This document shows positions 634-10,604 of a stretch of 64,000 bases of DNA, piece by piece. The position numbers and the translations under genes were made by a program. The DNA comes from Prochlorococcus sp. AG-442-M23 (GTDB lineage Bacteria; Cyanobacteriota; Cyanobacteriia; PCC-6307; Cyanobiaceae): assembly GCA_003209655.1 (NCBI GenBank), contig QCPW01000001.1, positions 1-64,000 of the forward strand. Reading direction: 5' to 3'. Each line of letters opens with the position of its first letter. The stretch's first letter is position 1. Under the pieces are notes generated by a model that saw nothing but the letters and a program-made list of their open reading frames with translations, ran no database searches and was not told the origin of the DNA.

Positions 634-918
634 ATGTTTTGCACGCAATGCGGAAATGAAATAACAAAACAAACAATCTTTTGTACAAATTGCGGATTTA
701 GATTTGATTATGAAACAAAGCCTAAAGTCAAAATGGAAAATAAACCAAAAAGTAAAGGTAGATTAGATTTAAAAAGTATAAAATTTTTTGAGAACCCAAT
801 CCTTAACTTTGTAATTCTTATAATTATGTTTGTTTTTGGGATACCAATATTGCCAATAATTGTACCTATACTTGCAATTTATTTCATTTTCAAAAAAATT
901 ATCCCCAAAAATAAATAA
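634..918 (+). CDS. Small zinc-ribbon membrane protein
   Basis: This 94-residue protein opens with a double-CxxC zinc ribbon (Cys3, Cys6, Cys17, Cys20; FCTQC then FCTNCG). A basic linker follows, and then one long hydrophobic stretch at about residues 53-88 that can make one or two membrane helices. The basic C-terminal tail ends in PKNK. It resembles the many bacterial zinc_ribbon_2-type proteins of unknown role. Its stop abuts the stop of the minus-strand M48 protease, which also ends in a zinc ribbon, so the two may be functionally linked. No clear Shine-Dalgarno precedes the ATG. Function unknown. Confidence 0.7.
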   Translation: MFCTQCGNEITKQTIFCTNCGFRFDYETKPKVKMENKPKSKGRLDLKSIKFFENPILNFVILIIMFVFGIPILPIIVPILAIYFIFKKIIPKNK

Positions 919-1887
919 TCATTCCATTAATGTTTTTGCCCCACATAATCCACAGAACTTATCACCTAAATTTAGTATTGCGCTGCATTTAGAACAATAT
1001 ATTATCTGCAAGTTTTCTCTTTTTTTATTAATTATTTTATCGTAGCCACTGGATTCAATCCACTCATTAAGTCTTGCAATTCGTAGCATAGGGAAAGGGT
1101 GAGTTTGTGGTATTAATTGTCCTCCCAAAATTGCCTGATCAAATGAATATGCTTGACTAAATTTTTTAATTATTTTATCTGTAGGTTCAAAATCTTCTTC
1201 CATAAATTGTCTAGATTGTTCAACAAATGCTTTTACAAAGTCATCTTTTTGATATTTAAGAGGTACTCCTGCTAGGGCTATTAAAGCCCTTAATGCACTA
1301 TTTTTATTTTGACAACATAGTAACCCTGCTCTGTCGCATGATAATTCTTGCATCCTAGCCCAATGATATAAAGGATATTGGATGCTTTCTATTAAAACTT
1401 TTCCGAAAATAGGAACATTAGGTATCGGAATATTTCTAATTATCAAGGGCAAAATTTTTCTGGAAAGATTGTAATAAAAAAGGTGCCCACTTTTTATATG
1501 ACCCAACTCGTGTCCAATAACAAACATCAATTCATCATCATCAAGAATATCTATAGCACCAGTCGTGATTTGTATAGTTGGTTTTTCTACTCCAAAGGCA
1601 GATGCAGCTACCTTATAATCCCACCTTGTATAAAGATCAGGAGGGTTATCAAAATCTAATATTTCACATGCTTTCAGATACATATGAAAAATTTTTTTAA
1701 AATTTTTTTCGTTAATTTTTAAAGCATTTCCTTTTTGTTCCAATATCATCGACTTCTCAAAAGTTGATCCTTCAAATTTTTGAAATACTGTTGCAATTCC
1801 TGATATTTTTTGCAACGCGTTAAGTGCCTCTCTATCAAGAGGATGTTCATATTCTTGAGGATCCAAACCATAGAGAATTTTAGACAT
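919..1887 (-). CDS. M48-family zinc metalloprotease with C-terminal zinc ribbon
   Basis: This 322-residue protein carries the M48 gluzincin signature HELGH at residues 126-130, with a likely third zinc ligand Glu181 in the QELSCDRAG segment. Peptidases of this family cut peptide bonds in membrane or periplasmic substrates and resemble HtpX and Oma1. Hydrophobic segments around residues 120-170 flank the active site, but there is no multi-helix HtpX N terminus. The last 25 residues form a CxxC...CxxC zinc ribbon (Cys298, 301, 312, 315), an unusual addition. The gene converges with the zinc-ribbon membrane protein at 634-918 with no gap. Family assignment is firm; substrate unknown. Confidence 0.85.
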   Translation of the reverse strand: MSKILYGLDPQEYEHPLDREALNALQKISGIATVFQKFEGSTFEKSMILEQKGNALKINEKNFKKIFHMYLKACEILDFDNPPDLYTRWDYKVAASAFGVEKPTIQITTGAIDILDDDELMFVIGHELGHIKSGHLFYYNLSRKILPLIIRNIPIPNVPIFGKVLIESIQYPLYHWARMQELSCDRAGLLCCQNKNSALRALIALAGVPLKYQKDDFVKAFVEQSRQFMEEDFEPTDKIIKKFSQAYSFDQAILGGQLIPQTHPFPMLRIARLNEWIESSGYDKIINKKRENLQIIYCSKCSAILNLGDKFCGLCGAKTLME

Positions 1888-1968
1888 TCACAGATCCAGC
1901 AACTTACTTAAAATATTTTAGCTGAATTAATTTTACATATACTTTTACTTTCCTAAATAGAAAATTTA

Positions 1969-2229
1969 ATGGATAATAAACTTATAAATGAAATTCTGAT
2001 TCTAGCAAAATTCTAGCAGATTAGTTCCTCTAAATCCCTTGATATGACTGAAGAAAAGTTTTGGCTAATGAAGTGAGTACTTGATGCTAAAAAGATAAAA
2101 GAATACTGTTCGAGTAATAATCGAATACTTATTAGAAATCCTGAATATCCATTAGAGATTGAGAAAGTGGCAAATAATCTTGAAGAGAGCACTATTCCAG
2201 TAAAAGAGAAGAAAGCTAAAAGCAAATAA
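1969..2229 (+). pseudogene. Broken small gene with two in-frame stops
   Basis: One reading frame of 86 codons runs from ATG at 1969 to TAA at 2227-2229, but TAG at 2014-2016 and TGA at 2074-2076 interrupt it. The three pieces read as ordinary protein: MDNKLINEILILAKF, then a segment with MTEEKFWLMK, then VLDAKKIKEYCSSNN continuing to a Lys-rich end. No frameshift is needed, which argues for a recently inactivated gene rather than chance. It lies between the M48 protease and the unknown operon starting at 2303. I do not recognise the parent family. The inner ATG at 2044 gives only ten codons. Confidence 0.55.
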
Positions 2230-2252
2230 ATATTCCCAATAAATAACAGTAA

Positions 2253-2276
2253 CTAGACTTTCTAGGAAACTAGAAA
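2253..2276 (+). other. Two mutually exclusive hairpins ahead of the unknown operon
   Basis: CTAG occurs three times. CTAGA-ctt-TCTAG (2253-2265) and TTTCTAG-GAAA-CTAGAAA (2259-2276) share the middle arm, so only one can form at a time. The second has a 7-bp stem and a GAAA tetraloop. Both lie 26-50 bases before the ATG of the winged-helix gene at 2303. No T run follows, so this is not a classical terminator. A leader switch or RNA processing site is possible but unproven. Confidence 0.35.
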
Positions 2277-2302
2277 TAAAATCACCATCAAGATCAAAAA
2301 CA

Positions 2303-2812
2303 ATGGATCCTCTCAAGAGAAGCATTACTAACAGGCAATTACTTCCTTTATTAGAAGTAATAGAACTCTTTATGAAATTCGATAGAGAGATACCTGCACA
2401 AATGATGAGTACATATTTATATGTAGCTACCCATAACAGATGTCATAAACAAGCACTGGAAGAAGATTTAAGTTTTTCAAGTGCTTCAGGCTCTAGGAAT
2501 ACTGATTATCTAAGTCCAACCAATAGATTAAGAAAGAAAGGTTTCTCACTTTTAGAGAAAAAATATGATCAATATAATGGCAGAAGATTAACCCTTGAAT
2601 TAACTTCTGACGGTAAGAAACTAGCAGAAGAATTAGAGGCGATTCTTTATTCACCTGAAGAGAAAGAAGGAGTAGATTCATTCTCTACAAAGTTCATAAA
2701 AGAAAAAGAAATTAAATCTGAGAAAGAAAAAGATATTAATTCTCTATTAGAAAAATATAAAGACATTGATCCTGAATTACTAAGAAAAGCTTTAAGCGGG
2801 GATAGGAAGTAA
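2303..2812 (+). CDS. Winged-helix (MarR-like) DNA-binding protein, putative
   Basis: This protein of 169 residues has an N-terminal helical part (FMKFDREIPAQMMSTYLYVA). Next comes a helix-turn-helix-like stretch with SASGSRNTDYL, and then a wing-like pattern (KKGFSLLEKKYDQYNGRRL followed by a beta strand and DGKKLAEELE). This order matches MarR-type winged helices, where the DGK/LAEEL helix ends the DNA-binding unit. The tail from about residue 120 is highly charged and may be a coiled coil. The TAA stop overlaps the ATG of the next gene by one base (TAATG), a sign of translational coupling. It is the first gene of a four-gene unit and may regulate it. Function is inferred. Confidence 0.6.
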   Translation: MDPLKRSITNRQLLPLLEVIELFMKFDREIPAQMMSTYLYVATHNRCHKQALEEDLSFSSASGSRNTDYLSPTNRLRKKGFSLLEKKYDQYNGRRLTLELTSDGKKLAEELEAILYSPEEKEGVDSFSTKFIKEKEIKSEKEKDINSLLEKYKDIDPELLRKALSGDRK

Positions 2813-4743
2813 TGGATAAATTGATAGGAGCGGAATTAATTTCTGAAGTAGAGGATCAAAGAGAGGAAGGATACTCTTTGCAGGAGCGAGTTTATGGATG
2901 TGGTTACTCGAGAGATGGAGAGCCTGATTATAAGGGTTACTATTTTGCATTAGCAGAGGCAAATGAAACGAAAGTACAGGATATATTTTTTGATGATATT
3001 CAAGATTATGAAATCCCATTTTTAGCTTTTGAAGCAGGAAAATATATGAAAGTTGTCTATTTTTATGATGACTTAATTGATGCTTTACAAGAACAAGAAA
3101 TTGAATTTTTTAAGGCTTATAAAATAATAAAAAACTTTGGTTTAAAAATTAACTATAAAAATTTATATAGATCAGGATTCATCAAAGATCCAATAAATAT
3201 TGATAACGAAACTAAATATTTGGAGGGCGAAGAATTACTTGCAAAAATATCTCATAAAGATGGGACTTTAAAATATGATCGAGAAACAATCATAGATTGT
3301 GGGTTTGAATTATTTGATATGCATATAAATGAATATCCGAATTTTATAAGATTCTTCGAGGAAGTAAGAAAACTAAAAGGAGTAAATATAGAAGATATTG
3401 AAATAGAAGATATTGATATTAGTAAACTAAAAGAAGATCTTGAATCGCTGCTTAATAAAGATAGAAAGTATTATGTCCTAGATTCAATAGCCTTTAGTGA
3501 TAGTGAGGATCTTGAAATTTATGCATTAACAGAGAGCCTTCTTTTTGAGGTTGTTTTATTCAGTTCTGAGGAAAATGATTGTGAATCAGATTTAAACAGT
3601 CAAGAATTTCTGCCAATTAATTCTGAAGGAGATAAAGATTATGGATACTTGCCTCCAGGTAAATATTGGGTTGGAGATTTAACCTATGTTATGGATGAAT
3701 TTTTTGATGAGTATTTAGGATATTTTGAGGGAGTTTTTAGAACCAAAAAAGGTAATAATTTTGCAATTATAAAAACAGCCGGAGGAGATGGTACTTTTGT
3801 TGACTATGATTTAAATTCTTATCCTGTAGACGCAGGATTAATAGGTTGTGTAGAAAGTAAAGGCGTTAAGGAAACTGACAGCGATGACTATGGTTGTTAT
3901 CACTTCTTTGAGTACCCATTTAAATGTTCTTGGCATGAAAATGGTGGCTATATTCAATTTGGTGATATATGGATTAAAACTGCTAGTTTTGACGGTTTCT
4001 TCATTCCACCACATATATTTACACTAATTGGTAAAGCATCTCTTTTATTTGGTGAACAATTTCTAAAAAATTATGAAAGCTTAATTGGAGTTCAATCTCA
4101 AGAATCAGAATATTGGACAAATAGAGCCAGAGAACTTGAGTACACAGACATAGTAGATAGAGTGGTTCAGGAGATTTACTCTGCTAAATCAAAGTCTTTA
4201 CGAAACAGGAATAACTCAAAAAATATTTTTGAAATCCTAATAAATAATCATGGTTCATCTCAAATTGCTGAAGCTTTCTGGAGAATATTCAAAGAGGATT
4301 TTGAAATTGATCTAACAGCTCAAAAAAGTAAAATTATAAATTTCCTTGATGATTCTGAAAAAGATTCTCTAAAAGAAAAAGATATTCAAATAACTCAAAT
4401 GAGTGATTTAAATTTAGATGATTATCCAGAGATAAAAGATATTAAACAAAGAGAAAGAACTGACAAACTATTAGAAAAGGTTGCAGGAGTTCTTAGAAAA
4501 CAACTTTGGCCGGAGGGACAAATTGCAGCTGATTGGTGGCAAAGTCATTCTCTTAGAAAGGAAGAAGAAGGAGATAAAGATTACGCATATATGGCAAGCC
4601 TAATGGTAAAATTGCATATGAAAGAATTATCTGGTGATTCAGTTTTTACTGAAGGAAGCAAACTTAGTAAAGAAGATCAATATCGTATTTATTTTGATAT
4701 GGTTAAAAATTGTGAGTGGTTTTTTAAATTAGATCCTGATTAA
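2812..4743 (+). CDS. Large acidic protein with a VDAGLIG-type domain, function unknown
   Basis: This 643-residue, strongly acidic soluble protein has no signal peptide. The middle (about residues 280-400) has a recognisable module: LPPGKYWVGDLTYVMDE, then GGDGTFVDYD, YPVDAGLIGCVES, and a closing GGYIQFGDIWI strand. This arrangement of PGKYWVGD, DGT-Y/F and VDAGLIG recalls a beta-rich domain I know from phage and environmental proteins (DUF4241-like); I cannot confirm the family name. The N-terminal 280 residues and the C-terminal 200 residues, which include a Trp-rich AADWWQSHSL patch, are unfamiliar. It is translationally coupled to the winged-helix gene before it, and the next gene starts two bases after its stop. 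Confidence 0.6.
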   Translation: MDKLIGAELISEVEDQREEGYSLQERVYGCGYSRDGEPDYKGYYFALAEANETKVQDIFFDDIQDYEIPFLAFEAGKYMKVVYFYDDLIDALQEQEIEFFKAYKIIKNFGLKINYKNLYRSGFIKDPINIDNETKYLEGEELLAKISHKDGTLKYDRETIIDCGFELFDMHINEYPNFIRFFEEVRKLKGVNIEDIEIEDIDISKLKEDLESLLNKDRKYYVLDSIAFSDSEDLEIYALTESLLFEVVLFSSEENDCESDLNSQEFLPINSEGDKDYGYLPPGKYWVGDLTYVMDEFFDEYLGYFEGVFRTKKGNNFAIIKTAGGDGTFVDYDLNSYPVDAGLIGCVESKGVKETDSDDYGCYHFFEYPFKCSWHENGGYIQFGDIWIKTASFDGFFIPPHIFTLIGKASLLFGEQFLKNYESLIGVQSQESEYWTNRARELEYTDIVDRVVQEIYSAKSKSLRNRNNSKNIFEILINNHGSSQIAEAFWRIFKEDFEIDLTAQKSKIINFLDDSEKDSLKEKDIQITQMSDLNLDDYPEIKDIKQRERTDKLLEKVAGVLRKQLWPEGQIAADWWQSHSLRKEEEGDKDYAYMASLMVKLHMKELSGDSVFTEGSKLSKEDQYRIYFDMVKNCEWFFKLDPD

Positions 4744-4745
4744 AG

Positions 4746-5420
4746 ATGGAAGATAATTCTTATTTAGACAAGTTAGAGAATCTTATAGACCAATTATTTT
4801 ATGAAGGAACAATTCACGAAGGGACTCTGCAAGTCCTTTCAGATATGTTTTCCAGTTTGGAGGATGCTGAGAATAAAGAGGAATTTCTTTCACACTTGAA
4901 AGAGGATTATGAAATGGAAGATACAAGTCTTGAATCAATAAATCAATATCTAGACAGAGAGTTTTCAGCATGGCAAGAAGAGCATGGTGAAGAATTACTT
5001 AAAGAGAGATTTAATATTGGCAAATCAATGAAGTATCCAAATGTGAAGGAATTTTTGAAAGATCTTGATTATGAAATCATGCAGGGGGTTCTGAATGGTT
5101 CAATTACTTCTGGTTTTAAGAAGACTATTCCTGAAGAACTTTTTGAATTTTTACCTTTAGATTCTTTTGAAGAACTTGTTTTGAGCAATATAAAGGAAAT
5201 TTGGAAGGATGATCCTACAAAGTGTAATGAATTCATTTCCCCTAATAAAGAATGTCAAAAGTTTGATGACAACATAGTGGATATTCTTATTTGTATTTAT
5301 GAAGATTTAGGTATAGACAATATTGCTGATCTTGCTTACCCAAACGGATGCACATTGAAAGAGGTTAAGGAAAGACTTTGTAGGTATCAAAAGTTTATCT
5401 TAGAAAAAGAAGCCAAATGA
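4746..5420 (+). CDS. Acidic helical protein of unknown function
   Basis: This protein of 224 residues is rich in Glu, Asp and Leu and predicted to be mostly helical, with no membrane segment or signal peptide. Three Cys residues cluster in the C-terminal half (KCNEF, NKECQ, GCTLK). I do not recognise a family. The ATG follows the stop of the 643-residue gene by two bases, and its TGA stop overlaps the ATG of a 36-residue peptide gene (ATGA). This places it as the third member of one transcript. The shared acidity with the preceding product suggests the two may act together, but this is inference. Confidence 0.6.
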   Translation: MEDNSYLDKLENLIDQLFYEGTIHEGTLQVLSDMFSSLEDAENKEEFLSHLKEDYEMEDTSLESINQYLDREFSAWQEEHGEELLKERFNIGKSMKYPNVKEFLKDLDYEIMQGVLNGSITSGFKKTIPEELFEFLPLDSFEELVLSNIKEIWKDDPTKCNEFISPNKECQKFDDNIVDILICIYEDLGIDNIADLAYPNGCTLKEVKERLCRYQKFILEKEAK

Positions 5421-5527
5421 AACGATTACTACTCCCACTACTAGCTGCACTAGCTTTACCTACTGCTGTAGAAGCAAAAAAGAATAAAGAGCCAATAGAA
5501 ATAAATCTATCAGCTCTAAAGTGCTAG
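5417..5527 (+). CDS. 36-residue secreted peptide
   Basis: The ATG overlaps the preceding stop as ATGA. The product starts MKRLLLPLLAALALP and continues to an A-x-A-type cleavage site (AVEA). The mature part would be about 16 residues, starting KKNKEP and ending in a single Cys. The basic N terminus, hydrophobic core and small residues before the cut are a textbook Sec signal peptide. I recall nearly the same leader at the front of several small exported picocyanobacterial proteins, so this may be a leader fused to a short tail or a truncated relative. The tail has no known domain. Confidence 0.6.
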   Translation: MKRLLLPLLAALALPTAVEAKKNKEPIEINLSALKC

Positions 5528-5542
5528 AGAATAAATTTTAAT

Positions 5543-5803
5543 TCACTCTTCAAGACACCTTTTCAGAAAATCAATTTGTTGATTATTCAGTTCACCTTTT
5601 TGAGATTCTATTTGTTCAATTATTGCGATTAATAATCCAGTAGTTTCAGTTAAGTGTTCACAGGAATGCATATAAATTGAAGAGAATCTTGCCATACAAT
5701 CAACAAACTCACCTCTATTTTTAGTTAACTTAGTAACTTTTATTTTCAGTGAATTCATTAGTCTATCCAATGCTTCAGAATCTTTTTTTCTTTTTGGGGA
5801 CAT
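5543..5803 (-). CDS. Small hypothetical protein downstream of DUF2130 gene
   Basis: This 86-residue protein has a basic N terminus (SPKRKKD) followed by what look like three amphipathic helices. There are three Cys residues and no membrane segment. It starts five bases after the DUF2130 stop on the same strand, so the two are almost certainly co-transcribed. I do not recognise the family. It converges on the plus-strand operon ending at 5527, with a 15-bp gap. It could be a partner or accessory factor of the DUF2130 protein. Confidence 0.5.
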   Translation of the reverse strand: MSPKRKKDSEALDRLMNSLKIKVTKLTKNRGEFVDCMARFSSIYMHSCEHLTETTGLLIAIIEQIESQKGELNNQQIDFLKRCLEE

Positions 5804-5808
5804 TGTTA

Positions 5809-7167
5809 TTAAGCAGCCTCCAACTCTTGAAAATTAATAGATTCTTCTAGATCATTATCACTTAATGAAATGTCTTTAATAAAACCTCCCCATAAAGTTG
5901 CATTTTCTAAGATCTGATCAATACAAAGTGATCTTTGTTCTTTCGAACGCTTGAGAATTGAATTTGCACCAGTTATATTTTGATCTATCAATTTGATTTG
6001 TTTAGCTACTGCTAAATGAATCTTTTGCAAAAATTCTGGAGATCTAGATTGGAGATACCTAATCTTGTCTGCATAAATTTTTGCATCAGCATTTTTAGCA
6101 AGAGCGTTTTCTAGTTCCTTTTGTAATCTTACTCTCTCTAAAGCAAAAGTCCTTAGAGTAATAATTGATGAAATAACGTTAGCGGGTCTTACGACTAACA
6201 TCTTTGGATAATCATTATCATGGACAAGGGTCATCCCAGAACTGAATAATTTATTTTTAGGTTCCAGAGTAGAGACTAAAAACGCATATTCACATCCAGA
6301 TTTCAATCTATCTTTATGTAATTTTTCATAATGCTTGTGATTTTTATTCTCATCACTTCTTTTGATAAGAAATTCATCCTTCATATCAAACATTATTGAT
6401 AAAACCTCTCTTGTTCCATCCATTTCCCTGAATATATGATCTCCTTTACTACCTGTACTAGAGTCATTGTCTTTTCCAAAAGTTGCATTTGGTAAAACGC
6501 CAATTAAATTTTCATGAATTTCAGCATGAACGTATTTTTCAAGATTTTCTCCAAGGTCTTTCGAACCAAGAGACATTTGGTAGTTCTTAAAGTAGGCAAC
6601 TTGATTTTTTAAATCTTGAATTTCTTCATTTTTGCCATTTAAAGTTAAATTAAATTGATCTTTTAAATCTGACTCAGCCTTCTTATTTTTAAGTTCTAAA
6701 TTAGAAGTTACTAGTTCAACCTGAGTTTTAATTTTATTCTGGAGTTGAATTATCTCACCCTCCTTTAATTGAACTTCTTTATTTTTTTCTTTAATGGCTT
6801 CATCAACTTTTATTTTTATATTTGCATCATTTAAATTAATTTGACTTTCTAAAGAAAGTATTTTCTTGTCTTTAGAATCACCCAACTCTTTGTATTTATT
6901 TTTGTACTGCTCCTCTTTTAAACGGAAATCATTTTTAAGTTGAATGATGTCATTGTTTTTTTCATTTATTTCAAAATTAAATTTCGAACTTAAATCCTGT
7001 TCAAGAATTTTTTTGTATTGTGAAACTTCATTTTTGACTTTTTTTTCAAGTTCTAAATTGAACTCTTTTGTTCTGACTTGCTGTGAAATTAGAGCATAGT
7101 CTGATTTGTCTATTGAAAATGCAGTATGGCACTTTGGACAAGTAATGTTGTTGTGACTGTTAGTCAT
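5809..7167 (-). CDS. DUF2130 protein (coiled coil plus nuclease-like domain)
   Basis: The 452 residues begin with a half zinc knuckle (CPKC, residues 10-13). A long charged coiled coil runs from about residue 30 to 195. The C-terminal domain has the DUF2130 hallmarks KGDHIF, FDMKDE, YEKLHKDRLKSGCEYAFLV and STLEPKN. From memory, DUF2130 is grouped with PD-(D/E)XK nuclease-like folds; here GD followed by D-x-K would be the candidate metal-binding residues. Its biological role is not established. The upstream non-coding gap likely holds its promoter. The 86-residue gene follows in the same transcript. Confidence 0.8.
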   Translation of the reverse strand: MTNSHNNITCPKCHTAFSIDKSDYALISQQVRTKEFNLELEKKVKNEVSQYKKILEQDLSSKFNFEINEKNNDIIQLKNDFRLKEEQYKNKYKELGDSKDKKILSLESQINLNDANIKIKVDEAIKEKNKEVQLKEGEIIQLQNKIKTQVELVTSNLELKNKKAESDLKDQFNLTLNGKNEEIQDLKNQVAYFKNYQMSLGSKDLGENLEKYVHAEIHENLIGVLPNATFGKDNDSSTGSKGDHIFREMDGTREVLSIMFDMKDEFLIKRSDENKNHKHYEKLHKDRLKSGCEYAFLVSTLEPKNKLFSSGMTLVHDNDYPKMLVVRPANVISSIITLRTFALERVRLQKELENALAKNADAKIYADKIRYLQSRSPEFLQKIHLAVAKQIKLIDQNITGANSILKRSKEQRSLCIDQILENATLWGGFIKDISLSDNDLEESINFQELEAA

Positions 7168-7262
7168 GATTGTTTGAGATAAAAATTAATTTAGAGGTTT
7201 GTGACTAAATTGAATCCCGAACAATTAACTTGGTATTGATTATTAATCGTGATAAATTAAAG

Positions 7263-7400
7263 GTGGAATTCAATTGGGACGCTTATTCCTTTGGACTCCT
7301 TATGCATTAATCCCTGGTCGGATTAATGCAATTTTTTTTGGAGGCTGAAAATACTCAGCTAAGGAAATCTAAGGACTTTTTCAAGAAGAATCATCCTTAG
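7263..7400 (+). pseudogene. Interrupted small ORF with one in-frame TAA
   Basis: From GTG at 7263, the frame reads VEFNWDAYSFGLLMH, stops at TAA (7308-7310), then continues in the same frame as SLVGLMQFFLEAENTQLRK and a Lys-rich end to TAG at 7398-7400. Both halves look like coding sequence, with an amphipathic or membrane-like helix followed by a charged tail. Its 3' end overlaps the convergent methylase-like gene by about 20 bp. The TAA sits inside an inverted repeat. A shorter alternative is ATG at 7326, giving a 24-residue peptide. It is either a nonsense-mutated small gene or a coincidence. Confidence 0.4.
7304..7339 (+). terminator. Rho-independent-type hairpin with T8 tail
   Basis: The arms GCATTAATCC and GGATTAATGC pair perfectly around a CTGGTC loop; a further T-A pair extends the stem to 11 bp. 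AA and eight T residues follow directly on the plus strand. This is a strong terminator signature, yet no intact plus-strand gene lies upstream within 1.7 kb. It therefore implies a short plus-strand transcript, either a small RNA or a remnant of the interrupted ORF. Confidence 0.6.
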
Positions 7401-9411
7401 ATTCTTTAGAACTATCGTTTTCTTCTAAACGACTTTTTAGGATTTCAAAGATTGCTTCTTTTAAATCAGTATCTGATATCCGCTTAGATTCTGTTCTTAG
7501 GTAATTTTCCAACTGTGATTTGCTAACGCTCCAGCTACTTAGTTCATCTTTTTGCTCGACAGATTTCTTCTTATTAGAGTTTTCAGAGAGTGAATCATTA
7601 TTTAACTGAAGCCAACCATCAGCTGTTAACTGATTTAACTCATTTTGCATTTCATCTAATGATATAAAAAGCTCTCTAGTTCTTTTTAAGATTTTTTTGG
7701 CTGAATTTTGTTCTGCTATTGATGGGATTGGAATACTTAAGTTTTTTAACTCTTTTATTGATAGAAAAGGAATGGTAGATCCTTGACTAGAAGAAGAGAT
7801 TAACCTTTGACATATTTTACTTCTTAAATATTGCAGTAAATATTCAGGATTAATAGATGATGAGTCGTGAACTCTTAAGATACACAAGGATGTTCCAGGA
7901 ATTGTATTTTCTAAATCTGTTGAGATAATACCTATCTTTCCAATTGTTCCTTTTATAGAAATAATTAAATCATTTCTTTTTACGAAGGGTAAATTTGATC
8001 TCGAAAAGAATTCATCTCCAACATTTACTTTCTTACTTCCTTCCTTTATTTCTCCAATGCTATTGATATCCGAAATTAATATTTCACTAATTTCTGTCCC
8101 ATTTTTAATATTTTTTGATGAAGAATTTAATGGACGTACAAAATCAACTAAAGAATTTAAGGTCACAGTTTCTCTATTGTTTAAAATATTTTTTATTTCT
8201 TTATCTTCATCCGTCAATAAATATCTTCGCACTGAAAGATTATATTCTTGTGATTTAATTTCATCAGAAGAAACTAAAATTGAATTTTTATCAATTTTTT
8301 TATTTTTATATAATTTAAATAAATTTTCGATTTCTTTTTCTGGGATAAGAAGAGTTCCTCTTTTTGCTTCATCGTCATTCTTGCAATTTGTGAAATCTAA
8401 AAATTGAACTTTATCATTCTTTTTTCTATTTTTTTTCAATATTAGTAAAGCTCCTTGAACTGCTGTACTTCGAAAAACATTTGGAGGAAGTTCAATTACA
8501 GTGTCAAGCCAGTTATTCTCAATCAGCTTTTTTCTGAAATAGGAAATCCCATTGTTATTAGAAAAAAGGGTACCCATATTTGTAATTGCAATAGTTGTAT
8601 CTTTAGTATTTTCATGGGCAAGATATATTGACTTGCATTGGAAATCTGTAATGTTATGCCATTCTCCTGAATAATTAGTTGATAAATATTCTGAAAAATA
8701 AGGAACCAAATCCCAATTCTGCCTATTCATCATGTGTTCAAATCCTAGAAATGTTATCTCTCTTGGAGACCAACGGTTTATTTTTGGTAATACTTTTCCA
8801 TATAGATGAAGTAAAGATGAGGCAAATCTATCTAAACGATCATATGGATCGTAATAAAAAACATCTCTATTCTCAATAAATTTATAGGCAGCGAGTGTTC
8901 CTACTGGTCCAAGACAATTTATTTCACAATTTTCTGAGATGTTGTCAAAAACCTTTTTAGAAAAATCCAGTATTCCCTTATTCAGAGAGTAAATTCCATA
9001 CCCGCTAAAACCAATATCAATCTCTAAAATAAGATCGATAATAGTCTCGATTTCTTTACTAGACCCAGTCGCCACAACTTTTGCTACTGGCAAAAATTTA
9101 GATCTTAAATTTTCAAAATTTTCAATGTGCTTTATATAACCTACTCTGCTGGAATTGTCCTCCATGTATTCTATGAATTCGGGCAGCATCCCTGGACCAT
9201 CTCTCCTTAGTTTGACCAAAATTTTTTCTATTTTTTCTTTACTATCAACTGTATTAAGAACATCAAAAAAACCTATTGCTTCATTTTCAGTTTGAGGCAG
9301 AAATTTTGCCCAAAGTAACATAAAAACAAGGGTATCTAGCCAAGCTTCACCACCTAATTTTGGATTGACTTTAATTAAATCTTTAATTTTTTTTAGTTGA
9401 GTATTATTCAT
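7381..9411 (-). CDS. Degenerate HsdM-like methylase fused to an HsdS-like specificity domain
   Basis: This 676-residue protein has an HsdM-type N-terminal helical region (about 1-150). A Rossmann-like part follows, with a weak motif I (CLGPVG, 166-171) and a motif II-like YYDPYDR (187-193). The late HsdM signature IELPPNVFRSTAVQGALLIL is at about 306-325. The catalytic NPPF/Y motif expected near residue 235 is not visible; the equivalent stretch reads WDLVPYF. Residues ~415-590 resemble a type I target-recognition domain (FVKRNDLIISIKGTIGKIG; IPIPSIAEQ). No hsdR is in the window. It probably binds DNA but may not methylate it. Its ATG overlaps the DUF4258-like stop by four bases. Confidence 0.7.
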   Translation of the reverse strand: MNNTQLKKIKDLIKVNPKLGGEAWLDTLVFMLLWAKFLPQTENEAIGFFDVLNTVDSKEKIEKILVKLRRDGPGMLPEFIEYMEDNSSRVGYIKHIENFENLRSKFLPVAKVVATGSSKEIETIIDLILEIDIGFSGYGIYSLNKGILDFSKKVFDNISENCEINCLGPVGTLAAYKFIENRDVFYYDPYDRLDRFASSLLHLYGKVLPKINRWSPREITFLGFEHMMNRQNWDLVPYFSEYLSTNYSGEWHNITDFQCKSIYLAHENTKDTTIAITNMGTLFSNNNGISYFRKKLIENNWLDTVIELPPNVFRSTAVQGALLILKKNRKKNDKVQFLDFTNCKNDDEAKRGTLLIPEKEIENLFKLYKNKKIDKNSILVSSDEIKSQEYNLSVRRYLLTDEDKEIKNILNNRETVTLNSLVDFVRPLNSSSKNIKNGTEISEILISDINSIGEIKEGSKKVNVGDEFFSRSNLPFVKRNDLIISIKGTIGKIGIISTDLENTIPGTSLCILRVHDSSSINPEYLLQYLRSKICQRLISSSSQGSTIPFLSIKELKNLSIPIPSIAEQNSAKKILKRTRELFISLDEMQNELNQLTADGWLQLNNDSLSENSNKKKSVEQKDELSSWSVSKSQLENYLRTESKRISDTDLKEAIFEILKSRLEENDSSKESKDDSS

Positions 9412-10136: not shown

Positions 10137-10604
10137 ATGGTACAACAGGAACCTAGCTACTGGCTAATGAAAAGTGAACCACATGCTTATAGTATTGATA
10201 ACTTAAAAGCAGATGGGGTTACCTTATGGGATGGTATCCGAAACTATCAGGCACGCAATTTTATGAGAAAGATGAAAATTGGTGATAAAGTTTTTTTTTA
10301 CCATTCAAATTGTAAACCGCCAGGAATCGTAGGTTTTATGGAAGTTATAGATCTGAATATTATTGATCCAACTCAATTTCAAAAAGAATCAAGGTACTAT
10401 GACCCTAAATCAAGTCACAAAAACCCAAGATGGGATTGTGTGAAAGTAAAGTATCTTTTTAAATCAGATAAGTTTCTAACTTTACCTGAATTAAAAATTT
10501 TATTTAATGAAGAAGAACTTTTACTTGTTAAAAAAGGAAATAGATTATCTATCATTCCTGTAGAAATAAAAATAGCTAAATTGATCCTAGAAAAAATTAA
10601 ATAA
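10137..10604 (+). CDS. EVE-domain protein (DUF55)
   Basis: All 155 residues form an EVE domain, a PUA-like fold. Diagnostic segments are YWLMKSEP at the start, then LWDGIRNYQARNFM, GDKVFFYHSN and GIVGFMEV. EVE domains bind modified bases in DNA or RNA; the bacterial relatives are best known near modification-dependent restriction genes and tRNA-modification genes. Here it stands alone, converging on the DUF2811 gene. Length and motif order match the family closely. The ATG at 10137 places the first conserved residues at position 8, as usual. Confidence 0.9.
   Translation: MVQQEPSYWLMKSEPHAYSIDNLKADGVTLWDGIRNYQARNFMRKMKIGDKVFFYHSNCKPPGIVGFMEVIDLNIIDPTQFQKESRYYDPKSSHKNPRWDCVKVKYLFKSDKFLTLPELKILFNEEELLLVKKGNRLSIIPVEIKIAKLILEKIK

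Follow-up and report, generated by a model that had tools for sequence, protein, structure and literature searches.

The window analyzed here is the first 64 kb of contig 1 of the 1.63-Mb genome of Prochlorococcus sp. AG-442-M23 (hereafter, the source genome). Starting 2.3 kb from the contig start, four open reading frames (ORFs) stand in a row on the plus strand at 2303–5527 (genes 1–4). This unit is likely a patchwork of exchangeable parts, placed in a hypervariable genomic-island site near a conserved EVE-domain gene; its last gene opens with a 60-nt signal-peptide block that recurs over the genus in front of dissimilar mature proteins. Below, G denotes a genome and L a related locus collected for comparison. 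The features of the unit are as follows.

2303–2812, plus strand: gene 1, 169 aa, MarR-type winged helix, host relative of cyanopodovirus gp0.7/pMarR (phrog_9665 match)
After about residue 117 of gene 1: charged C-terminal extension
2812–4743, plus strand: gene 2, 643 aa, acidic, with three modules, N (~5–267), M (~278–390), and C (~544–640) (partial matches, iterated profiles)
3643–3981, plus strand: M module of gene 2, 'GKYWVGDL..VDAGLIG', predicted all-beta (phrog_20074, structure model, phage look-alikes)
4441–4731, plus strand: C module of gene 2, 'RKQLWPEGQIAADWW' (fusions to gene-3 parts in G236 and G296)
4746–5420, plus strand: gene 3, 224 aa, acidic, with a predicted helical N-terminal module at residues ~1–120 (G236 match, alignment, model)
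5417–5527, plus strand: gene 4, 36 aa, signal-block gene with a 16-residue tail (signal-peptide matches)
5417–5476, plus strand: 60-nt signal-peptide block, the proposed recombination joint (53/60 identical to the consensus)

Genes 1 and 2 are joined by TAATG, with a one-base overlap at 2812; genes 2 and 3 are separated by a two-base gap (4744–4745); genes 3 and 4 share ATGA (5417–5420). The computed isoelectric points of the four products are, in order, 7.7, 4.5, 4.3, and 9.5. A preliminary description of this DNA, made from the sequence alone, had named the tight packing with the same three junctions, a DNA-binding-like winged helix, two acidic proteins, a 36-residue peptide, and a module of the large protein that recalls phage proteins. 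All of this is borne out; the winged helix is that of gene 1, the acidic proteins are the products of genes 2 and 3, the peptide is the product of gene 4, and the phage-like module is the M module of gene 2.

Distribution and conservation of the signal-peptide block

Gene 4 encodes a signal peptide, MKRLLLPLLAALALPTAVEA, and 16 further residues. The signal peptide has matches (E ≤ 0.01) in 170 of 266 genus genomes, hence, this small ORF is not a chance reading. Of the nearly complete genomes of the genus, 66 of 87 have a match; over all 266, matches number up to nine per genome and lie in frames of very different length. A pattern allowing any synonymous codon of the signal peptide, scanned over one genome per species (84,980 species), matched 86 stretches; among the 80 listed, 77 are labeled Prochlorococcus and three 'Synechococcaceae cyanobacterium'. 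With two patterns, the block was found in none of 2.9 million viral contigs, which speaks against its origin from viruses.

We compared 86 block copies (85 in the 80 listed loci, and the window), with the mature parts clustered at blastp E ≤ 1e-3. They form 32 clusters whose mature proteins are dissimilar, 25 of these with at least 60 mature residues; very short mature parts cannot show similarity in such clustering. Among 31 representatives whose flanks are complete, pairwise identity averages 0.87 across the 60-nt block and 0.91 across its first 48 nt; it falls to 0.57 in the 6 nt preceding the ATG and to 0.36 in the 6 nt that follow the block, and is about 0.3 at greater distance. At positions with the same amino acid, the same codon is used in 0.724 of 7,684 pairs, while codon usage would predict 0.355. 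The leucine codons of the block are dominated by CTA and CTC, though these account for 11% and 4% of leucine codons in usage. RNA structure as the source of this DNA-level conservation finds no support (z 0.27 for the window block, z 1.35 for the consensus), and an Rfam scan of eight related loci yields only a tRNA.

Among 815 proteins of the block loci, dissimilar proteins share 60-nt stretches of at least 80% identity only at codons 1–20. This sharing involves 72 proteins, 70 of them in one group (this block), from 26 clusters; none is seen at codons 21–40, 41–60, or the last 20. These loci were chosen for carrying the block, so that its frequency there is biased, and the other positions and genes serve as the control.

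The 16-residue tail of gene 4 has no match in the related loci collected. Since the block here ends in such a tail, gene 4 is probably a truncated or empty copy, an 'empty plug'.

Exchange of flanks and abutting starts

The 91 distinct copies of the block comprise 63 upstream clusters and 38 mature clusters. Ten upstream types occur with more than one mature type, and ten mature types with more than one upstream type; three upstream types combined with two mature types yield three complete four-way sets. Here, the sequences of L110 and L189 before the ATG agree at 99.7% over 1,098 bp, and then continue into a PDZ protein and an SdiA-regulated/NHL-like protein, respectively; L092 and L174 are 97.3% identical over 486 bp upstream, and then continue into the same two proteins (PDZ, NHL-like). 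The NHL gene after the block is 99.9% identical over 870 bp between L174 and L189, and the signal-block genes of these two loci show 11 differences in the first 60 nt and one in the remaining 825. The block goes with the NHL gene in L189 and with the upstream sequence in L174, hence, breakpoints are located at either end of the block. The NHL segment is then followed by another start of the block.

Over 108 distinct copies, 35 pairs share the same upstream sequence, while their mature parts have no blastp hit even at E 10. At the window's own site, a DUF3804 gene near the EVE gene stands, with 0 nt between, before a different signal-block protein in each of four loci: 138 aa in L249, 127 aa in L144, 92 aa in L134, and 331 aa in L120. 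In a control comparison limited to genes that have an upstream twin, a twin whose mature part is unrelated is seen for 24 of 32 block genes versus 63 of 531 other genes (Fisher P 7e-15, indicative only, as the genes are not independent).

Among 101 examinable signal-block genes, 76 start at −4 to +5 nt from the stop codon of an upstream ORF that has 50 aa or more; 25 of these starts use ATGA, and the 76 abutting genes stand behind 38 clusters of upstream proteins. The ATGA of genes 3 and 4 is, therefore, part of a general pattern of signal-block genes. The gene-3 module is present in four of 87 upstream partners of block genes, i.e., in the window, twice in G117, and once in G333 (near the EVE gene).

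Signal-block genes also stand in direct tandem succession, each starting on or near the preceding stop (L154, 2817–3643; L249, 2989–4004; L159, 6344–7141).

Gene 1

Residues 1–117 of gene 1 match phrog_9665 ('transcriptional regulator', E 6.4e-36), the family match extending over the winged-helix domain. The matched phage records number 45 in all, pelagiphages included. Identity to cyanopodovirus gp0.7 is 45–51% over 116–117 aa in the cyanophage rows listed, and 47% over 121 aligned residues for gp0.7 of P-SSP7. In seven of eight phage stretches fetched, an integrase adjoins the gp0.7-type gene, the stretch of P-SSP2 being the exception. As reported in PMC9692554, the P-SSP7 protein, pMarR, binds DNA, interacts with RNA polymerase alpha, and activates an internal rne promoter; residues S66, R67, and G106 are reported there as needed for Ca2+ binding, DNA binding, and dimerization, and host homologs are noted in MIT0604 and in MED4 genomic island 1. 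These three residues align with S64, R65, and G104 of gene 1, i.e., all three key residues tested are kept. Gene 1, as judged from its sequence, would bind DNA.

Matches to gene 1 are found in 50 of 266 genus genomes; the majority of those listed have about 40% identity and form a separate branch. Five loci are closer: the window itself, G117 (77%), and G284, G206, and G236 (47–49%). In a tree of 20 rows, the window gene is paired with that of G117 (95/97), and P-SSP7 is grouped with G206 and G236 (82/95, below the starred level). The G206 protein is 82% identical to the P-SSP7 protein (99/121); this identity and the tree grouping point, therefore, to exchange between these phages and hosts, with no direction implied. 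What follows gene 1 is different in each of the five closer host loci, and different from the phage neighbors. The next gene is gene 2 in the window, encodes an acetyltransferase-like protein (below the Pfam cut-off) in G117, and encodes proteins of 201, 179, and 136 aa in the other three. A phage regulator type with measured activity stands here at the head of host cargo operons.

Host genes 75–82% identical to P-SSP7 gp0.7 are seen in L202 (9102–9467), L203 (9684–10049), and L201 (1925–2290), each followed by different small cargo genes; they may reflect recent phage–host exchange of this regulator, for which activity has been measured.

Genes 2 and 3

Gene 2 has a match in six of 201 family genomes, full-length in one (the source genome) and partial in five, and in eight of 266 genus genomes, full-length in one and partial in seven. 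The partial matches separate it into the N, M, and C modules, which match different proteins: N in G172; M in several genomes; C in G296 and G236. Profiles iterated on the related loci collected reveal fusions of these modules with gene 3. The gene-3 module is found in one protein with M in G206, G205, G216, and G415; with N in G172; and with C in G236 (L030/L049); in G296 (L028/L047), an end part of gene 3 is fused with C. The G172 fusion protein also has an RNA polymerase alpha C-terminal-like domain (PF03118, E 2.2e-7), a thin hint towards transcription. At L038 (3647–6466), a single chain of 939 aa has an RNA polymerase alpha C-terminal-domain-like part, the gene-3 module, and the N module of gene 2.

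Gene 3 is 59% identical to the N-terminal part of a 321-aa protein of G236, and close similarity is seen only in the source genome and G236; the alignment of its module has 19 rows. In 156 genomes sampled over the phylum, the gene-3 profile is found in one (the source genome only), and the M profile in three. The M module matches phrog_20074 (E 1.2e-10), as do 12 of the 14 members of the module alignment.

Structure prediction for the single proteins, which the preliminary description had proposed, yields an all-beta model of high confidence for the M module and an all-helical model for the gene 3 module (mean predicted local distance difference test, pLDDT, 71.7); no function follows from these models. 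The model of gene 2 is weak outside the M module (mean pLDDT 57.3), its N module being modeled without relatives, as the row of the N-module relative was misaligned and left out. The fold search with the M module gives credible viral look-alikes, two of them with E below 0.001; these resemble it at E 2.2e-8 and 3.7e-7 and are uncharacterized phage proteins. Fold searches yield nothing reliable for gene 3 (two rows only, Z 2.7 and 2.3) or for gene 2 outside the M module (best PDB rows with Z up to 5.3, mostly over helical low-confidence parts). By sequence, solved-structure relatives are absent for the M module, and the two chains found for gene 3 (E 0.23 and 0.63) are not credible. The lack of a fold match to genes 2 and 3 does not imply a new fold. 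No catalytic domain was found in genes 1–4.

Since gene-3 modules are fused to each of the gene-2 modules in relatives, genes 2 and 3 probably act together. Their modules suggest one shuffled domain toolkit, and the two proteins would probably form one cytosolic complex; a shared fusion is an argument for shared function, not proof of it.

Neighboring genes and a repeated island element

The context of the unit in the window is formed by the following genes.

5543–9411, minus strand: 86-aa ORF, DUF2130 protein, and fused N6 methylase/type I specificity protein (Pfam N6_Mtase, Methylase_S, DUF2130)
10137–10604, plus strand: EVE-domain gene, conserved edge of the hypervariable site (PF01878, E 3.8e-52; present in 14 other related loci)

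At 7381–9411, an N6 adenine methylase part and a type I specificity part are combined in a single protein adjoining the DUF2130 protein. It is matched by PADLOC specificity models, and no relatives of it were found among the related loci collected.

A repeated intergenic element, 'GATTGACAGTCGATCTA', lies between island genes, with 102 distinct sites in the related loci, 73 of them followed by a T-run, as in a terminator. It is seen in L092, L189, L128, L031, L049, and others, as well as in contigs C2, C5, and C7 of the source genome, which has six exact and six one-mismatch element cores; it is absent from the window at up to three mismatches. A block-like start is located upstream of the element at 13 of the 102 sites, at 11 of them at 39 nt, compared with 25 of 4,000 random positions. 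Three exact matches in viral contigs, among genes that do not look cyanobacterial, are taken as chance. The element is probably PRE1, a Prochlorococcus genomic-island repeat; this identity is unconfirmed in the literature searched, and no link between the element and the signal block was found there.

Interpretation and alternatives

With fair confidence, we favor the explanation that the unit is an island operon of exchangeable parts, in which the block serves as a standard joint whose recombination swaps the exported mature proteins. Underlying it are the shared block with its sharp edges, the exchanged flanks, the module fusions, and the abutting starts. Gene 1 would be a DNA-binding regulator of the cyanophage gp0.7/pMarR type heading variable cargo, and genes 2 and 3, built from the shared toolkit, would contribute one cytosolic complex. 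The end of the operon would meet the block by recombination within its 60 nt, for which short homology may be sufficient in principle; a swap at the block would change what lies behind it, and different mature proteins would be exported. The block, without a promoter of its own and directly behind the upstream stop, is expected to be translated by coupling and expressed from the upstream gene. In the window, the outcome would be a regulator, two acidic proteins, and a short, presumably exported peptide. A role of genes 2 and 3 against phages or rivals, drawn from the neighboring methylase/specificity and DUF2130 proteins, is a guess.

Several observations weigh against this explanation. The source genome has only one block copy, and the function of this copy is doubtful, its tail being without any match. 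Blocks of the same genome are no more alike than blocks of different genomes (0.844 for 26 pairs versus 0.841 for 975 pairs; 768 of 2,000 permutations reach the observed value), i.e., there is no sign of ongoing homogenization of blocks within a cell. Gene-start junctions are also seen without the block (in the 63 of 531 control genes), partly via the repeated intergenic element. Many of the junctions were read from assemblies that are fragmented or derive from single cells: 17 of the 108 distinct copies are from genomes of at most six contigs, and for none of the 35 same-upstream pairs do such genomes supply both partners. Moreover, these 35 pairs are not independent; the PDZ/NHL case recurs in many of them, and one covers just 31 nt. 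No recombinase was identified.

The proposal can be extended to a genus-wide pool of promoterless export cassettes, in which the block is a dedicated joint, any mature domain behind it is exported, and any gene end gives expression; we regard the chances for and against such a pool as evenly balanced. If it exists, the proteins that the most abundant photosynthetic cell exposes would vary through exchanges at a standard plug, perhaps with help from the repeated island element, the surroundings of which carry block remnants. A block acting as a joint would explain how the streamlined Prochlorococcus varies its exported proteins, i.e., those exposed to phages, grazers, and neighbors, with very little DNA. 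It would also allow such proteins to be located simply, by looking for a single 60-nt string, and turn the acquisition of new secreted genes by islands into a testable question. As a genus-wide joint for exported proteins, the block appears undescribed: no description of it was found in the literature searched, the subscription papers on islands and tycheposons being largely outside it.

The preliminary description had named the four genes as a candidate for an undescribed system, perhaps of mobile or phage-related origin. They are not one travelling system but a patchwork, at a site that is unusual and phage-linked. Among the genomes searched, only the source genome has the full set, and only it has full-length gene 2 in the family and genus searches. 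A strict travelling four-gene system is rejected, as the modules are found apart and the cargo of gene 1 differs between loci; it also fails by the condition of refutation that the description itself had set. A survey of gene neighborhoods, suggested there as a check, finds the homologs apart, with the context partly shared, namely, by the gene-2/gene-3 module fusions in relatives and by the gene-3-type protein before a signal-block gene in the four cases of 87. As for the origin, the phage link stands for gene 1 (with gp0.7) and the M module, and parts are indeed reshuffled between islands, although not as one mobile system.

An undescribed phage-defense or toxin–antidote operon, with gene 1 as the switch and genes 2 and 3 as the effector, would fit the compactness and coupling of the genes, the phage-type regulator at their head, the acidic partners, the hypervariable site, and the fused methylase/specificity and DUF2130 proteins next door. 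We consider this rather unlikely, as the four genes do not co-occur in other genomes searched, and neither a catalytic domain nor a reliable fold match points to an effector. PADLOC 2.0 gives no families at E ≤ 1 for genes 1–4, which also speaks against a known defense system.

The proteins behind the block might, instead, form one ancient secreted gene family, the mature part having diverged beyond recognition and the signal peptide being kept by selection. Several mature clusters are small and have no known domain, and single-linkage clusters hint at remote ties between some of them. In a Pfam scan of ten mature proteins, five have no match, one is TPR-like below the cut-off, and four are above it, each with a different domain (PDZ, SNase, SdiA-regulated, SHOCT), the latter arguing against a single family. 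Further, synonymous sites of the block are conserved although the sequence around it is at background level; nearly identical flanks, both before and behind the block, recur in exchanged combinations; and a mature family can also carry signal peptides other than that of the block: a secreted SNase-like protein has the block in MIT 9107 (L141, 2165), and other signal peptides in L153 (38), L038 (1370), and L199 (2238). Common descent of this kind is, hence, improbable.

We assign a similarly low probability to an artifact of assembly or whole-genome amplification, by which the repeated block would cause unrelated genes to be joined in single-cell assemblies. Misjoining at a 60-nt repeat is plausible, and the loci with the strongest junctions (L110, L189, L128, L174) stem from assemblies that are fragmented or from single cells. 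However, the same classes of junction are seen in separate genomes, with the PDZ protein following one upstream in 10 distinct copies and a second one in 4, and unrelated block proteins are found inside single-contig genomes (72 and 159 aa in G117; 246 and 189 aa in G237), while G191, with three contigs, has one partner of the DUF3804 set. The blocks at the joint differ between exchanged copies, therefore, no exact long repeat spans the joint.

Least probable of all is a decayed prophage or tycheposon fragment, suggested by the resemblance of gene 1 to an early cyanopodovirus gene that mostly adjoins an integrase: no structural, integrase, or tyrosine recombinase gene is found among the nine proteins at 634–9411, no tRNA gene is seen across the 64-kb window or in nine of ten related loci scanned, and the cargo of gene 1 differs from the phage neighbors in all five closer host loci. 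The negatives for the window cover the sequence from the contig end, 2.3 kb before the unit, rightward.

Comparison with known systems

Gene 1 has the same winged-helix domain as gp0.7/pMarR of cyanophage P-SSP7 (PSSP7_011) and the equivalents of its S66, R67, and G106; it differs in the C-terminal extension of about 50 residues and in heading a cargo operon, whereas the phage gene stands before an integrase. The M module of gene 2 is linked by a profile match to phrog_20074, i.e., phage proteins of unknown function; these are short phage proteins, while here the match is one module of a 643-aa host protein.

PRE1, as we take the island element to be, and tycheposons are comparable in that a repeated intergenic element is present in the same islands. 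The island element differs from the signal block in being non-coding and often followed by a T-run, while the block is coding.

Terminal reassortment of bacterial effectors and mycoplasma surface-protein families with a shared signal-peptide region both combine one 5' secretion module with many different rest-proteins. The signal block resembles them in two respects, both observed here: the same 5' coding DNA is found on proteins without detectable similarity, and flanks occur in exchanged combinations. Unlike in terminal reassortment, the promoter or regulatory region does not travel with the block, as the upstream sequences agree only at background level beyond the last 6 nt; and, in contrast to both systems, the block starts at the ATG, abuts the upstream gene, and is spread over many islands of the genus. 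PARCEL coding repeats (PMC2996958) are likewise a coding DNA module spread between and within genomes, often in membrane-targeted proteins; they are, however, tandem 25-residue repeats of the mature part, whereas the block described here is a joint at the signal peptide.

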